Of a stretch of DNA of 64,000 nucleotides, positions 25,277-33,800 are shown one piece after another. The DNA comes from Opitutia bacterium (GTDB taxonomy: Bacteria; Verrucomicrobiota; Verrucomicrobiia; Opitutales; Opitutaceae), in NCBI GenBank assembly GCA_016217545.1, contig JACRHT010000002.1, positions 62,001 to 126,000 on the forward strand, given 5' to 3'. The notes beneath the pieces are model-generated. The model was not told the DNA's origin and ran no database searches. It saw nothing but the letters and a program-made list of their open reading frames with translations. The position numbers were made by a program, and so were the translations under genes. The stretch's first letter is position 1. Every line of letters starts with the position of its first letter.

Positions 25277-25300
<24 letters not shown>
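23927..25300 (-). CDS. HtrA/DegP-type periplasmic serine protease
   Basis: Envelope quality-control protease, about 457 residues. After a signal-anchor-like hydrophobic segment ([20 protein letters not shown]) comes a trypsin-like domain with the full triad: His86 in LTNAHVA, Asp117 in WTDLAVI and Ser206 in [10 protein letters not shown]. Two PDZ domains follow (about 240-330 and 355-445). The start is uncertain. The GTG at 25300 has a weak AGG upstream; a GTG at 25285 is the alternative; the ATG at 25351 would run deep into leuS. At 25300 the start codon shares the palindrome CACGTG with an in-frame GTG of divergent leuS. Confidence 0.9.
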
Positions 25301-27874
<2,574 letters not shown>

Positions 27875-27978: not shown

Positions 27979-28887
27979 ATGAAAACTCTTCTTCGCCTCT
28001 TCGCCGCATCACTCGCGCTCGCCGTGATCGCCGCGCCGTCTGCGTTTGCTCAACGCCAGCTGGGCAAGAAAAAGGGGCCGACGAGCAAGCTGTTCCTCGC
28101 CGAAGCGGTTGGTGAAGGCAACATCACGACCGAAGGCAAATCGCACACCGCCAAGCAAGCGACGGCGTTCGATGCACCGGGAACCGTGATCGAGACGGGC
28201 AAAGACTCGCACCAAGCTTTTGTTTACTCCAACGGCACCGCGATGCTCGTGGATGAGAACACGCGCGTGGAAGTCGACCGGTTCGTCCAGGAGCCTTTCC
28301 GTCCCGACCGCGAGAAATCCACCGAAACGGAGCCCTCCATTTCCCAAAGCGACGTCTTCGTCTCGCGCGGCCAGGTCAACATCTGCACGAGCCAGATGGT
28401 CTCTGGCTCGACGATGAACTACTCCACTCCCAACGCCTCGGTGAACATCCGCGGTGGCAAAATGGCGGTCTCCACCAACGGCACCGAGTCGACCATCTAC
28501 CTCCTCGATGGCGACGTCACTGTCCGCACCGGCGGTAAGGACACCGGCGGCACCCTCCTCCGTCCCGGCGAGAAGGCCACGATCCGCCCCGGACTCCCGG
28601 GCCGCCCGCCCATCATCACCGTCGCCCCCATCGAATCCAATCTTCTGCCCACTCTCGACGACAAGGTCGGCGCCGCCTGCGCCGCAAAGAAAACCGTCTC
28701 ATTCGAGACGATCGAGAAGAAGTCCGAGTTCGGCGCCGAAGGCGAAAAGCAACAGGATCTTCCCGCGGGCGCCCCGCCCGCTCCGCCCGAGGAACCCACG
28801 CAGGAAATCGTCGTGACCCCCACGACCCCGGAGGAGCTGCCCACCAACATCACGGTCAGCCCGTCCGCGCTCCCGGGCGGACAGTAA
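27979..28887 (+). CDS. FecR-domain exported protein of the exopolysaccharide operon
   Basis: A 302-residue exported protein: signal KTLLRLFAASLALAVIAAPSAFAQ, then a FecR-like beta-rich domain (about 50-210, including AFVYSNGTAMLVDENTRVEV, ASVNIRGGKMAVSTNG and IYLLDGDVTVRTGG) and a long Pro/Glu/Thr-rich C-terminal tail. FecR is known as an anti-sigma sensor, but stand-alone exported FecR domains without a membrane helix are also frequent beside polysaccharide genes; no sigma factor adjoins this one. I set the start at ATG 27979 because it opens the signal peptide. It is the first gene of the run ending at 32841. Confidence 0.82.
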   Translation: MKTLLRLFAASLALAVIAAPSAFAQRQLGKKKGPTSKLFLAEAVGEGNITTEGKSHTAKQATAFDAPGTVIETGKDSHQAFVYSNGTAMLVDENTRVEVDRFVQEPFRPDREKSTETEPSISQSDVFVSRGQVNICTSQMVSGSTMNYSTPNASVNIRGGKMAVSTNGTESTIYLLDGDVTVRTGGKDTGGTLLRPGEKATIRPGLPGRPPIITVAPIESNLLPTLDDKVGAACAAKKTVSFETIEKKSEFGAEGEKQQDLPAGAPPAPPEEPTQEIVVTPTTPEELPTNITVSPSALPGGQ

Positions 28888-28902
28888 CTCTCACCTCTCA
28901 CC

Positions 28903-30033
28903 GTGCTGACTCGCTCGTCGCTGAAACTCGCCTTGGCCCTGTGTGCCGCCCTGCTGTGCTCGCCGCACAGCGCGTTCGCCTTGCTCAATATCGACGGCAC
29001 GCGCAACCAGGTCTTCGTCTTCGGCAAGCTCACGATCGGCTACGACTCCAACATCTTCTCCTCCGCGGATGGCTCCGGCGACACTCTCTACAGCGCACAA
29101 GCCGGACTGGAGCTGAAGCGCCGCGCCGGGATCATTTCGGTGAACGCCCGCGCCGTGATCGATCGCCAGGAATTCCAGAAAAACAAAACGCAGTCCGCCT
29201 GGAACCCCACGTTCTACCTCGAACTCAACAAAACCACCGGGCGCACCACGGGCGCGTTCACCGTCAACGCCTACCGTTCCTCCCGCGCCGACAGCGCCGT
29301 CAATCTGCGCACGCAGACCTGGAATTTCCCGCTCGGCCTGAACGTGAAGTATCCCGTCAACGACAACTTCTACGTCACGTCCACCAGCGGCTACCTCCGT
29401 CGCAGCTACACGGACAATACGACGCTCCTCAATTACACCGACTACAGCGAGGGCATCGATCTGCTCTACGTCTACACCAGCAAGACCGACCTCTCTCTCT
29501 CCTACCGCATCCGCGTCGGCAACACGACCCTCGACACGTCGACCGACCAGTCGCTCATGCTCGGCTTGGTCAATCAGATCATCCCGAAGATCAACGGCGC
29601 CCTGCGCGCTGGCGTCCAGCGTCGCTCCATCGATTCCACCGGCGACGTTTTCACTCAGTGGACTCTTTCGGCCGACTTGGGATGGTCCGTCACCCGCAAA
29701 TTCAACCTTCAAGCCGTCGCGATGCGCGACTTCAGCACGACCGCTGTCGGCGGTTCGGTCGACACGCTCTCCGCCCAGCTGCGCGCCGCCTACGACTTCA
29801 ACCGCAAATACCAAGCCAACGGCGGCCTCGGCTACGGCCGCAATAAGTTCCTCGACGGCACCACGCGCGGTCGCCGCGACGACTTCTTCTCGTGGGACGT
29901 CGGCCTGAGCGCCACTTGGAGCGAACACCTCCACGTCGGCATCTCCTACAACTATCTCCACAATTGGTCGTCCATCAGCTTCTCGGACTTCGAGCGCACG
30001 GGCTACTCCATCGATATTTCCTCCCGCTACTGA
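28903..30033 (+). CDS. outer-membrane beta-barrel protein of the exopolysaccharide operon
   Basis: A 376-residue outer-membrane protein, GTG start, with a signal (SLKLALALCAALLCSPHSAFA) followed by many alternating amphipathic strands (LTIGYDSNIFSS, LSLSYRIRVGNTTL, LHVGISYNYLHNW) and a C-terminal aromatic residue (DISSRY) as needed for BamA-dependent insertion. It resembles the putative outer-membrane beta-barrel proteins (BBP2-type) found in exopolysaccharide loci. Located 15 bp after the FecR gene and 10 bp before the short OPX gene, it is a candidate porin partner through which polymer leaves the cell. Confidence 0.82.
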   Translation: MLTRSSLKLALALCAALLCSPHSAFALLNIDGTRNQVFVFGKLTIGYDSNIFSSADGSGDTLYSAQAGLELKRRAGIISVNARAVIDRQEFQKNKTQSAWNPTFYLELNKTTGRTTGAFTVNAYRSSRADSAVNLRTQTWNFPLGLNVKYPVNDNFYVTSTSGYLRRSYTDNTTLLNYTDYSEGIDLLYVYTSKTDLSLSYRIRVGNTTLDTSTDQSLMLGLVNQIIPKINGALRAGVQRRSIDSTGDVFTQWTLSADLGWSVTRKFNLQAVAMRDFSTTAVGGSVDTLSAQLRAAYDFNRKYQANGGLGYGRNKFLDGTTRGRRDDFFSWDVGLSATWSEHLHVGISYNYLHNWSSISFSDFERTGYSIDISSRY

Positions 30034-30043
30034 TCACTTTGTC

Positions 30044-30661
30044 ATGAAACCGCTGCTGCGTTTCCTCCTCCCCGTATTGCTCGCCGCGCTCGTCGGCCCG
30101 GCCTTTGCGCAGTCCGGCAATCCCGCCGACGCGAAAAAATCCTACGTGCACCGCCTGCAATTGGCGGATCGTGTCCGCGTCGCGGTTTACCAGGAGGAAG
30201 ACCTCACGACGCTCGCGCGCATCGACGCCCGCGGCATGGTCAATCTCCCGCTCATTCAGGAAATCCAAATCGGCGGCATGACGATCGTCGAGGCCCAGGA
30301 CGCGATTCAGAACGCGTTTCGCGAAGGACGTTTCCTGCGCGCTCCCCAAGTCACGGTCAGCGTAGAGGAGTATGCGCCGCGCGAAGTCTCCATCTCCGGC
30401 CAGATCCGCAATCCCGGCCGCTTCCCCCTGCCCAACGAGTCCACCTACACCATCGTCGAGCTGGTCACCAAGGCCGGCGGCATCACCGATATCGGCAAGG
30501 GCACCGCCGTCACCATCACGCGCTTCCTCGCCGACGGCACCAAGAAGGTTTTCTCCGTTAACGTCGACGCCCTGATCAAGGGATCGAAGGACGCCCGCGC
30601 CGAGGACAATGTTCTCCTGCTGCCCGGCGACAACGTCTACGTCCCCGAACGCCTCATCTGA
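30044..30661 (+). CDS. short polysaccharide export protein (OPX/Wza-like)
   Basis: A 205-residue periplasmic or outer-membrane-associated export protein. A signal ending in GPAFAQ precedes a polysaccharide export (PES) domain (about 35-110: LADRVRVAVYQEEDLTTLARIDARG in parts, LIQEIQIGGMTI) and one SLBB domain (about 112-185: EVSISGQIRNPGRFPLPNES, ELVTKAGGITDIGKGT). It lacks the C-terminal helix that forms the outer-membrane pore in E. coli Wza (about 380 residues), like GumB-type short OPX proteins, and has no lipobox cysteine. It would need another pore, perhaps the beta-barrel encoded just upstream. Confidence 0.9.
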   Translation: MKPLLRFLLPVLLAALVGPAFAQSGNPADAKKSYVHRLQLADRVRVAVYQEEDLTTLARIDARGMVNLPLIQEIQIGGMTIVEAQDAIQNAFREGRFLRAPQVTVSVEEYAPREVSISGQIRNPGRFPLPNESTYTIVELVTKAGGITDIGKGTAVTITRFLADGTKKVFSVNVDALIKGSKDARAEDNVLLLPGDNVYVPERLI

Positions 30662-30669
30662 TTTTCCCA

Positions 30670-32841
30670 ATGGCCTCCCCCATCGCCGCACCTCCGCCGG
30701 ATAAAAAACCGGCCTCGCTTCACGGCAACGAAGACCACGTCGTCGAACGCCGCACGCTGCGCGACTACTACATCATTCTCCGCGAACGCCTCTGGATCGC
30801 CCTCCCGATCGCCCTGCTGGTCGCCGTCTCGCTCGGCTACTACCAGGCGCAGGAGACCCCGATGTATTCCGCCGCCGCGACGATGCAATTCGAGCGCCCG
30901 GACCGCGTCGTCACGACCACCGAGGTCATCGACACCAGCGTGCGCTCCGAAATCGACCTCAATACCTACCTGCGCATCCTCGACAGCGGCCGCCTCCGCT
31001 CGATGGTCGTGCAATCGCTCACTCCGGAACAGGTGCAGAAACTCCAGCGCCCTTTCCTAAAAGAGCTTCCCCCGGGTGCTACGCCGCCCCCCGTCGGCGC
31101 CTGCATCGGCAGCGTGAACGTCCAGTCGCTGCGCAACAGCTTCCTCATTTCGGTTAACGTCGCGAACCGCGACCCCGAGGGCGCCGCCATCGTGGCCAAC
31201 GCCTACGTCAGCCAGTTCATGCGCTACCTCATCGAGTATTCCGGCGGCAAAAACGAGTTCGCCGTCGACTACCTCCGCACCCGCGCCGAGGAACTGCGCA
31301 AGGAATCCGAAGCCGCCGAAGGCCGCCTCCAAGACTACAAGCGCAAGAACAACCTCGTCTCCCTCTCCGCCTCCGTCGACATCGTCGCTGACCGCCTGAA
31401 GTCCATCAACGGCGAGCTCACGCGCGTCCGCCTCGAGCGCCTCAACCTCGAGGTCGTCATCAAGCAGATCGAGCGCATGAAGGCCGAGGGCGGCAACCTG
31501 CTCGAAATCCAATACATCGCATCCTACGGCACCATTCCCTCGCTGAAAGCGCAGCTGGCCGAACTCACGAAAACCCAATCGGTCCTCAGCGAACGCTATC
31601 TCGAGCGCCACCCGAAGATGGTCGACCTCGCCAACTCCATCGACGTCCTCCAGCAGCAAATCCAAAAGAACATCGAGCAGGCCATCGCCGACCTCAACAC
31701 CCAGTTCACCAAGGTCAAAGACTCCGAGGTCTCCTTCGAGCGCGAATACAAGCTCGCGGAAAACGACCAGCTCCGCCTCGGCGAACTCTCCGTCGAATTC
31801 AAATCCCTCGAGAACCAAGCCCAGGTCGCGAAGAACAACTACATCCAGATCCTCGACCGCCTCAACCAGACCACCACCTCGAAGAACCTCGAGAACATCC
31901 CGGTCAAGCCGCTCGACGCCGCCACTCCCGCCGGCGCGCCCTACACGCCCGACATCCGCAAAATCGTCAAGACCTGCGCCGGCCTCGGCTTCGTCGTCTT
32001 CGCCGCTGTCGCCGTTGGCCTCAGCTTCCTCGACGACCGTGTGAAGAGCGCCTGGGACATCGAAGGCTTCATCGGCGTCAACCTCCTCGGCATCATCCCC
32101 GAGCTCGCGGACATCCCCGAGGGCGAGAAACACAACCTCGTCACGAGCAATAAAGCCTCACCCGGCTCCGAAGCGTTCCTCAGCGTCTACAGCTCGGTGA
32201 AGATTCAGTCGAAGCTCGACTTCCCGAAGTCGATCCTCGTCACCTCCACCATCCCCGGCGAAGGCAAGACGATGATCAGCTGCAACCTTGCCGCCTCCTT
32301 CGCGCGCCACGGTAAACGCGTGCTCCTCATCGACTGCGACATGCGCCGCCCGATGCTGCACCGCCACTTCAAACTCACCAACGAGACCGGCCTCATCGCG
32401 TGGTTCGAAGCGGGTGCGAAAATCCCCGACGATCCCGTCGCCGACCCCACCCTCGGCTTCACCAAGGTCGACGAAAACCTCTTCCTCCTCCGCTCCGGTG
32501 GTCGCTCGAAGAGCCCGACCGAATTGCTCGAGAACCCGATCTTCGGCCAGTTCCTCGAGTCGCTGAAGCACCACTTCGACCTCGTCGTCATTGACTCGCC
32601 GCCGATGGGCGCCGTCACCGACTCGCTGCTGATCTCCGCTCACACCGACGAGATCATCTACGTCTGCCGCTTCAACCGCGCCTACCGGAAACACATTCGT
32701 CTCTACATCAAATCGCTCCGCGACGGCAAAAACGAGCTGCTCGGCGTCGTGCTTAACGGCCTCTCGCCGCGCCGCATCGAGTATTACTCGAACTACCGCT
32801 ACTACCGAAGCTACAAGAAATACTACGGCGCCCAGTCCTGA
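30670..32841 (+). CDS. polysaccharide co-polymerase / BY-kinase (Wzc-like)
   Basis: A 723-residue inner-membrane protein fusing a Wzz chain-length domain to a bacterial tyrosine kinase. Membrane segment 1 is about residues 41-60 (LWIALPIALLVAVSLGYY), a long periplasmic coiled coil spans about 190-390, and membrane segment 2 is about 432-452. The kinase has Walker A TSTIPGEGKTMISC (about 523-536), Walker A' LLIDCDMRRP (about 552), Walker B LVVIDSPPMG (about 637) and a Tyr-rich C-terminal tail (YYSNYRYYRSYKKYY) that is the expected autophosphorylation cluster. It controls polymer length and export together with the OPX protein 8 bp upstream. A terminator follows 30 bp after the stop. Confidence 0.94.
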   Translation: MASPIAAPPPDKKPASLHGNEDHVVERRTLRDYYIILRERLWIALPIALLVAVSLGYYQAQETPMYSAAATMQFERPDRVVTTTEVIDTSVRSEIDLNTYLRILDSGRLRSMVVQSLTPEQVQKLQRPFLKELPPGATPPPVGACIGSVNVQSLRNSFLISVNVANRDPEGAAIVANAYVSQFMRYLIEYSGGKNEFAVDYLRTRAEELRKESEAAEGRLQDYKRKNNLVSLSASVDIVADRLKSINGELTRVRLERLNLEVVIKQIERMKAEGGNLLEIQYIASYGTIPSLKAQLAELTKTQSVLSERYLERHPKMVDLANSIDVLQQQIQKNIEQAIADLNTQFTKVKDSEVSFEREYKLAENDQLRLGELSVEFKSLENQAQVAKNNYIQILDRLNQTTTSKNLENIPVKPLDAATPAGAPYTPDIRKIVKTCAGLGFVVFAAVAVGLSFLDDRVKSAWDIEGFIGVNLLGIIPELADIPEGEKHNLVTSNKASPGSEAFLSVYSSVKIQSKLDFPKSILVTSTIPGEGKTMISCNLAASFARHGKRVLLIDCDMRRPMLHRHFKLTNETGLIAWFEAGAKIPDDPVADPTLGFTKVDENLFLLRSGGRSKSPTELLENPIFGQFLESLKHHFDLVVIDSPPMGAVTDSLLISAHTDEIIYVCRFNRAYRKHIRLYIKSLRDGKNELLGVVLNGLSPRRIEYYSNYRYYRSYKKYYGAQS

Positions 32842-32871
32842 GCGCCCGCGCCAACCCTTTCTTTGCCACCG

Positions 32872-32900
32872 AGCCGCGTCGCAAGACGCGGCTTTTTCTT
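32872..32900 (+). terminator. rho-independent terminator of the exopolysaccharide operon
   Basis: A 9-bp perfect stem (AGCCGCGTC / GACGCGGCT) with a GCAA tetraloop, followed by TTTTTCTT, 30 bp after the BY-kinase stop codon. Confidence 0.93.
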
Positions 32901-32960: not shown

Positions 32961-33800
32961 GTGCTCTCCGCCTTCCTGCCGCCGAACTTCGATCCGCGCC
33001 GCCCCGTCGCCCTCATCGCCGGCCGCGGCCACTACCCGCTGTTCACGGCCAACGCCATCCGCGCCGCCGGCGTGCCCCTGCGCCTCATCGCCATCGAGGA
33101 GGAAACGATGCCCGAGCTGTTCAACAGCGTCGCTCCCGCCGAGCGCATCGAGGTCAACGCTGGCCAGCTCGGCAAAATGCTCGGCGCCCTCCGCGACTTC
33201 GGCGCCGGCTACGCCATCATGGCCGGCCAGGTGAAGCCCAAGCGCCTCTTCCACGGCCTCACGCCAGACCTGAAGGCCGCGCAAATTCTCTTCTCCCTCA
33301 AACGCCGCAACGCCGAAACCATCTTCGGCGCGATCGCCCAGGAGATCGAGAAACTCGGTGTCACGCTCCTCGACGCCCGCGCCTTCATCGACAACCACAT
33401 GGCCCACGCCGGCCCGATGGCCGGCAAGAAACTCCCCGTCGACCGCGAATACCTCGACCACGGCATCCACATCGCCCGCGAGATCGCCCGCCTCGACATC
33501 GGCCAAGGCTGCGTCGTCCGCAAAGGCACCGTCCTCGCCGTCGAAGCCTTCGAAGGCACCGACGAAATGCTCCGCCGCGCCGGCACCTTCAAGACCGACG
33601 AGACGCTCTTCGTGAAAGTCGTGAAGGAGAAACAGGACTTCCGCTTCGACGTCCCCGTCTTCGGCCTCCGCACCCTTGAAACCATGCGCGAAGCCGGCCT
33701 CGCCGCCGCCGCGCTCGAAGCCGGCAAGGTCATCGTCCTCGACAAGCCAGCGGTGCTCGCCCAAGCGAAAACCTGGGGCATCTCGCTCTACGGTTTCTGA
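32961..33800 (+). CDS. lpxI: UDP-2,3-diacylglucosamine pyrophosphatase LpxI
   Basis: Hydrolyses UDP-2,3-diacylglucosamine to lipid X in lipid A synthesis; LpxI replaces LpxH in many bacteria. The 279-residue protein has the LpxI (formerly DUF1009) pattern: VALIAGRGHYPLFTANAIRA at the N-terminus, GQLGKMLGALRDFG, MAGQVKPKRLF, GQGCVVRKGTVLAVEAFEGT (in parts) and the C-terminal AGKVIVLDKPAVLAQA. The GTG start at 32961 lies 61 bp after the terminator. With lpxK at 51 kb it shows that the organism makes lipid A. Confidence 0.93.
   Translation: MLSAFLPPNFDPRRPVALIAGRGHYPLFTANAIRAAGVPLRLIAIEEETMPELFNSVAPAERIEVNAGQLGKMLGALRDFGAGYAIMAGQVKPKRLFHGLTPDLKAAQILFSLKRRNAETIFGAIAQEIEKLGVTLLDARAFIDNHMAHAGPMAGKKLPVDREYLDHGIHIAREIARLDIGQGCVVRKGTVLAVEAFEGTDEMLRRAGTFKTDETLFVKVVKEKQDFRFDVPVFGLRTLETMREAGLAAAALEAGKVIVLDKPAVLAQAKTWGISLYGF

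Follow-up and report, generated by a model that had tools for sequence, protein, structure and literature searches.

The closest described counterpart of the locus reported here is EpsY/EpsX of Myxococcus xanthus, a composite translocon formed by a two-domain (D1D2) OPX protein and an 18-strand β-barrel (Schwabe et al., 2022; PMC9601211). AlgE is the closest structural homolog of EpsX (PMC9601211), and VpsM/VpsN of Vibrio cholerae similarly couple a short OPX protein to a barrel (PMC9601211). Class 3 OPX proteins with a barrel porin were described in the same year (Saidi et al., 2022; PMC9603273). An extended periplasmic part of the polysaccharide co-polymerase (PCP) was proposed by Schwabe et al. 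as likely, not as defining. By the published text, there are 287 cases in which the nearest polysaccharide gene to a short OPX and its barrel is a PCP only, with no pathway assigned. In E. coli, yjbEFGH is likewise an operon of its own that has been linked to polysaccharide secretion (PMC9603273), but yjbEFGH and gfcABCDE have another architecture, since YjbH and GfcD are double-barrel proteins beside a Class 1 or 2 OPX. Our literature search on exopolysaccharide export in Opitutaceae found no paper.

Here we characterize a four-gene operon from a member of this family, and think it reasonably likely that it is the exporting half of a Wzx/Wzy-like pathway for an exopolysaccharide, with the synthesis half encoded at a different place on the chromosome. 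The operon is located in a window, meaning the whole 64,000-nucleotide stretch of DNA that was analysed, which corresponds to positions 62001-126000 of contig C2 in a 5.09 Mb genome (17 contigs, 99.9% complete). All four genes are on the plus strand. They encode a FecR-domain protein (27979..28887; 302 aa from the ATG at 27979; PF04773, 31.8 bits, cut-off 24), an outer-membrane β-barrel that we propose to be the pore (28903..30033; 376 aa; OMP_b-brl PF13505, 34.8, cut-off 28.7), a short D1D2-type OPX (30044..30661; 205 aa; Poly_export PF02563, 66.1 bits, plus SLBB), and a PCP fused to a BY-kinase, of the Wzc type (30670..32841; 723 aa; CbiA/AAA_31 and a weak Wzz match). The gaps between the open reading frames are 15, 10, and 8 nt. 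Immediately 3´ of the kinase gene is an intrinsic terminator-like stem-loop (32871..32894, plus strand) with 10 pairs and a T run, the longest of eight such sites in the region, for which shuffles gave an expectation of 6.1. The conserved neighbors provide context: leuS (25277..27874, plus strand; Pfam tRNA-synt_1_2 and others) lies outside the exporter, 104 nt 5´ of the operon, and lpxI (32961..33800, plus strand; PF06230, 144.4 bits; PF17930, 94.2 bits) lies 119 nt 3´. With leuS and lpxI as its flanks, the operon has no adjoining glycosyltransferase, flippase, or polymerase gene by Pfam annotation of the neighbors. An earlier, sequence-only reading of this DNA had described the same gene content and order, the terminator, and the lack of synthesis genes, and the open reading frames and Pfam matches agree with it.

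The AF2 model of the barrel (pLDDT 89.6, 34 alignment rows) has 18 strands, counted by hand from the listed elements, which start directly behind the signal peptide with no plug or N-terminal domain before them. When structural matches were re-ranked by VIA, the first 11 entries were all AlgE (Z 19.6-20.2, ~300 residues aligned). Ordinary porins stood only ~1-2 Z units below, so the fold match by itself is no proof of barrel function; a search of PDB sequences with the barrel profile gave no convincing relative. The model bears out the earlier prediction of an outer-membrane barrel. An unrelated receptor, which that reading had named as a result that would refute it, was rejected as a candidate: although the Cir receptor held the first rank in Foldseek (TM 0.45), TonB receptors scored at about Z 16 in the VIA list led by AlgE.

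The OPX protein has a Sec signal, and no lipobox was present in 31 of 31 alignment rows. Its profile matches PDB Wza across the first two domains (D1-D2), and its orthologs stop at the second domain, so that, as had been noted from the sequence, the C-terminal amphipathic pore helix of a Wza-type (Class 1) OPX is absent. The features of a composite translocon are present instead, namely an OPX of at most 280 aa that carries a PES motif and lacks a membrane helix at its C terminus (here 205 aa, with PF02563 and one SLBB), and, within five genes, a gene for an AlgE-like 18-strand barrel (here 10 nt away; AlgE Z 20.2). The kinase matches TIGR01007 above cut-off (141 bits), the Wzz Pfam match is below it (21.1, cut-off 25.5), and Walker A with at least five tyrosines in the tail was found in 30 of 32 orthologs. 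Given the TIGR01007 match, the Walker motifs, and the C-terminal tyrosine cluster, we place the protein among Wzc-type PCP2a/BY-kinases. It is colinear with E. coli Wzc 7nhr (379-716 on 376-716, an offset of 3 residues) and, judged by length alone, is not extended. Matches to the XrtA/PEP-CTERM export models TIGR03027, TIGR03016, TIGR03007, and TIGR03018 were all below cut-offs, and the module is not assigned to that group.

Since AlgE is the nearest match of the predicted barrel, as it is of EpsX, the module is, by sequence and structural model, a predicted composite D1D2-OPX/barrel translocon of the kind already described in 2022. It resembles EpsY/EpsX in having a short two-domain OPX without a pore helix (EpsY is 217 aa), an adjacent 18-strand AlgE-like barrel, and a PCP partner. 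The earlier suggestion that the adjacent barrel is the partner of the OPX is thus plausible, given the 18 strands, the top match to AlgE, and the fixed gene order. The module differs from EpsY/EpsX in its fixed FecR-domain gene, its constant housekeeping site between leuS and lpxI, a PCP of Wzc length rather than an extended one, and a synthesis cluster that is distant but co-inherited. VpsM/VpsN, unlike this module, belong to the vps synthesis clusters, and that system is not known to include a FecR. What the locus adds to a known kind of translocon would be a FecR-domain subunit whose history is older and separate, together with, probably, an unlinked synthesis partner.

The arrangement is not due to chance, since relatives repeat these four genes, in this order, at the leuS-lpxI site, a comparison the sequence-only reading had recommended. 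The order leuS-FecR-barrel-OPX-kinase-lpxI-(nuclease-like)-(dus-like) is repeated many times within Opitutaceae, the family to which the window is assigned by its nearest named relatives, Lacunisphaera, Opitutus, and Candidatus Didemnitutus. The barrel profile, run against 84,980 species genomes, picked out 38 loci, nearly all from this family. FecR and the barrel are in place in all 38, and the OPX, the kinase, and later genes are present wherever the contig reaches, with end-cut loci missing only sequence past the contig end; a few loci have small variations 3´ of the kinase. In many module-less genomes, leuS is followed directly by lpxI, leaving a clean empty site (for example G043, G056, G064, G070, G071, G073, G074, G077, and G082). 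One of these Opitutaceae-type leuS-FecR-barrel-OPX-kinase loci (L117) is on a contig titled as an Akkermansia muciniphila MAG, a title that is probably misnamed.

The genome encodes two further barrel-OPX-kinase modules. A complete cluster at C17:367.6-379.1 kb (L007/L008) encodes, besides barrel, OPX, and kinase, transferases of the WbaP and WecG types, a FecR-domain protein, and a GH26 enzyme. At C12:1198.9-1204.7 kb (L005/L006), a divergent TPR gene accompanies a barrel, an OPX, and a kinase, with no synthesis gene among the neighbors examined; this export-only unit recurs across families of the order (L066, L068, L069, L071, L072, L077, L082, and L084). A fourth short OPX is encoded at C4:107.4-108.2 kb (L004), beside unrelated genes and without an adjoining barrel or kinase. 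The earlier reading had held that a Wza-length OPX, or a synthesis cluster with its own exporter, would refute it. The second of these exists, as the C17 cluster has its own barrel, OPX, and kinase and a third module is on C12, but no Wza-length OPX was seen among the four OPX matches by open frame. Moreover, three relatives (G062, G273, and G075) have the leuS-lpxI module as their only OPX and a single PF02397 WbaP-type transferase, located in the distant cluster described below, and the module is therefore not redundant there.

The FecR-domain protein is predicted to be secreted by a Sec signal. Its AF2 model (pLDDT 84.4, 33 rows) comprises a signal-peptide-like helix, a FecR domain, and a low-confidence disordered C-terminal tail. 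The best VIA match is to PupR 6ovk (Z 16.2 over residues 111-250), with the related anti-sigma factor structure 4m0n at 14.7-14.9 and all other matches at Z ~5 or less; its profile found no convincing relative among PDB sequences. PupR residues 110-238 form the CJM subdomain, and the STN subdomain (250-324) is needed together with CJM for transducer binding (PMC7186176). The protein therefore shares the periplasmic FecR/CJM fold with the FecR/PupR cell-surface signalling regulators (PMC7186176), but differs from them in having no STN after the CJM, no anti-sigma domain before it, and no membrane helix besides the signal peptide, and no anti-sigma or STN Pfam match was found in the 302 residues. 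Likewise, no sigma factor gene or STN-domain transducer gene is among the genes adjoining the operon. A role as a sigma regulator was rejected for want of the STN and anti-sigma parts. In some genomes the module FecR gene encodes 874 to 988 aa (L058 5945-8569, L115 149-3112, and L122 7250-9961), and L058 has, further along, a second FecR-like stretch and a long Ala-rich region. Another FecR-domain gene is located between Wzy_C-TPR and CHASE2-nucleotide cyclase genes in five genomes, including our own (G000 C17:17.7-23.0 kb, L160 6665-12013; L154, L159, L254, and L258). A biofilm operon of Burkholderia is known to have FecR next to CHASE2 kinases (PMC5192318).

The sequence-only reading had regarded FecR as a fixed member of the operon without a clear explanation. 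Its fixed membership holds for every module found, across the 38 loci, and its presence can now be explained in part. Profile hits in other families of the order include leuS-FecR-lpxI with no barrel, OPX, or kinase gene in between, in G034, G121, G217, and G242 (family f11) and in G234 (f17); such exporter-free sites include L155 8478-13010, L156 7992-12244, L158 6636-10900, L247, and L251. FecR is thus separable from the exporter. The simplest history is that an ancestor within Opitutaceae acquired the trio by insertion between lpxI and a FecR gene already present; alternatively, the trio was lost elsewhere.

These exporter-free sites also lend themselves to the view that FecR is a passenger, left in place when the trio was inserted and without a role in export. 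This would be compatible with the operon being an export half, and no FecR was detectable by profile in the barrel-OPX-kinase clusters of G017 and G063 or in C12-type modules. Yet the module-less leuS loci of the family no longer have FecR, apart from a piece of it at the end of a contig in G042, and the complete C17 cluster has a FecR gene as well. FecR evolutionary rates, after correction for leuS, also follow those of the barrel (partial r 0.44) and the kinase (0.43), both with p at most 0.0004, and do not follow lpxI (0.06, p 0.27), in a test on pairwise distances among 20 taxa whose cells are non-independent. We regard the passenger view as possible but on the unlikely side, and favor, with modest confidence, FecR as a recruited accessory.

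Where, then, might the polymer be made? We searched for a partner by examining the transferase locus of relatives with a single exporter, and found what we refer to as cluster S, a set of Wzy_C, GT2, GT4, and WbaP genes that precedes an lpd-like gene and a gene for an M42 peptidase. In this genome cluster S is at ~255.2-270.9 kb of contig C2 and the module at 90.0-94.8 kb, with 171 kb between the module end and the Wzy_C gene. The description of the module as secretion-only is thus true of the locus and does not extend to the pathway, as a co-inherited synthesis cluster lies on the same contig. In the examined genomes cluster S encodes two polytopic proteins, one of the Wzy_C family that includes ligases (PF04932; TIGR03097) and one weakly like Wzy polymerases (PF14296). 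A profile search found no PF01943 flippase in the cluster, and the genes examined included no OPX or co-polymerase.

We assessed co-inheritance in 61 family genomes from 40 genera, each at least 90% complete, scoring the module by its barrel and cluster S by Wzy_C and by WbaP. By Wzy_C, cluster S is present in 33 of 36 genomes with an intact module and in none of the other 25 (Fisher 3.7e-14), counts obtained with profiles built from module-bearing genomes only and cut-offs chosen after the score list was seen, and in which absence from a draft genome can be missing data. On the leuS tree there were 11 independent contrasts, about 10 of them concordant and none opposed (median p 0.002). When 16 fragmented or less complete genomes were omitted, 28 genomes had both, two only the module, and 14 neither, with none having cluster S alone (five contrasts, mean 4.8 concordant, 0 opposed, p 0.06). 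With WbaP as the marker and broken modules counted as present, the link was weaker (35 genomes with both, three with either one alone in each direction, and 20 with neither). G042, whose contig ends inside FecR, short of where a barrel would lie, can be omitted with the same result. Because the module and cluster S are physically apart, linkage does not explain their co-inheritance. Other barrel-OPX modules, the control, had no link to cluster-S Wzy_C (Fisher p 0.18, sign test p 1), and were rejected as its partners. Exosortase (PF09721) was also set aside as a tied partner, being present in 57 of 61 genomes and hence uninformative. The only genomes of the 61 without it (G043, G056, G071, and G077) are also without the module and cluster S.

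Individual genomes speak on both sides. In G013 most of the barrel is joined in frame to the C-terminal part of the kinase and FecR is truncated (L064 9166-10689), which may be a deletion derivative or an assembly artefact, and G041 has a frameshifted barrel, for which assembly error is possible. In both, remnants of WbaP are all that is left at the lpd site, as coupled decay of module and cluster S would produce if the assemblies are correct. The module is missing from G017 and G063, but their WbaP and GT4 genes of the cluster-S type are no more than ~30 kb from a Wzy_C gene and a barrel-OPX-kinase trio, in G063 with a PF13440/PF01943 flippase gene in between. Together with the fixed order, the predicted AlgE-like barrel, the helix-less OPX, the co-inheritance, the FecR rates, and the three relatives with one OPX and one WbaP, these cases support an export half with its synthesis half in cluster S. 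Counting against it are G052 and G057, with apparently intact modules and no cluster S, and G061, whose module looks intact but whose WbaP is truncated. The likeness of Wzy_C to ligases and the lack of a PF01943 flippase count against it as well, since cluster S could be for O-antigen, as does a co-polymerase no longer than E. coli Wzc, given that a two-domain OPX would have to span the periplasm.

The module might instead be a shared exporter that serves any polymer and has no dedicated partner, with the co-inheritance being a by-product of some lineages losing surface polysaccharides in general. Retention of the module without cluster S in G052 and G057 fits this proposal, and G043 and G056 are without any OPX or WbaP, as general loss predicts. 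However, the other barrel-OPX modules do not track cluster S, and G074, G071, and G014 are without module and cluster S yet keep other WbaP genes, so we consider a shared exporter improbable. More improbable still is that cluster S makes LPS O-antigen, its length set by the operon's co-polymerase while OPX and barrel export something else: the two polytopic proteins, one from the ligase-containing Wzy_C family and one weakly Wzy-like, would suit it, but a lone co-polymerase would not hold barrel and OPX in fixed order, and both are kept in every intact locus.

If the operon is the export half of a pathway that begins at cluster S, the WbaP-type transferase and glycosyltransferases of the cluster would build the repeat unit, and its polymerase would join the units. 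The Wzc-type co-polymerase/kinase would set chain length and pass the chain to a ring of short OPX, for which the AlgE-like barrel would be the outer-membrane pore that the OPX itself lacks. FecR could be a periplasmic accessory, a stabilizer or adaptor on the barrel side, recruited from the older gene at the leuS-lpxI site. The analysis itself establishes gene content, predicted folds, gene order, and co-inheritance, and from there the pairing, the direction of transport, all contacts between the proteins, and the part played by FecR are inferred. In its most specific form, which we put forward tentatively and think rather unlikely to hold in every part, this would be a two-site Opitutaceae pathway, with an export unit at leuS-lpxI in which FecR came to connect the short OPX to the barrel as an adaptor, and a second unit, for synthesis, beside lpd, the two unlinked but kept together by selection.

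Many short-OPX/barrel pairs adjoin only a co-polymerase, and their neighbors hence do not point to the polymer they export. Here, co-inheritance names a likely synthesis partner, and the pairing of the module with cluster S is directly testable by single-gene deletions. The locus also offers a testable reading for FecR-domain proteins beyond iron signalling, in which they may be periplasmic accessories of polysaccharide exporters.
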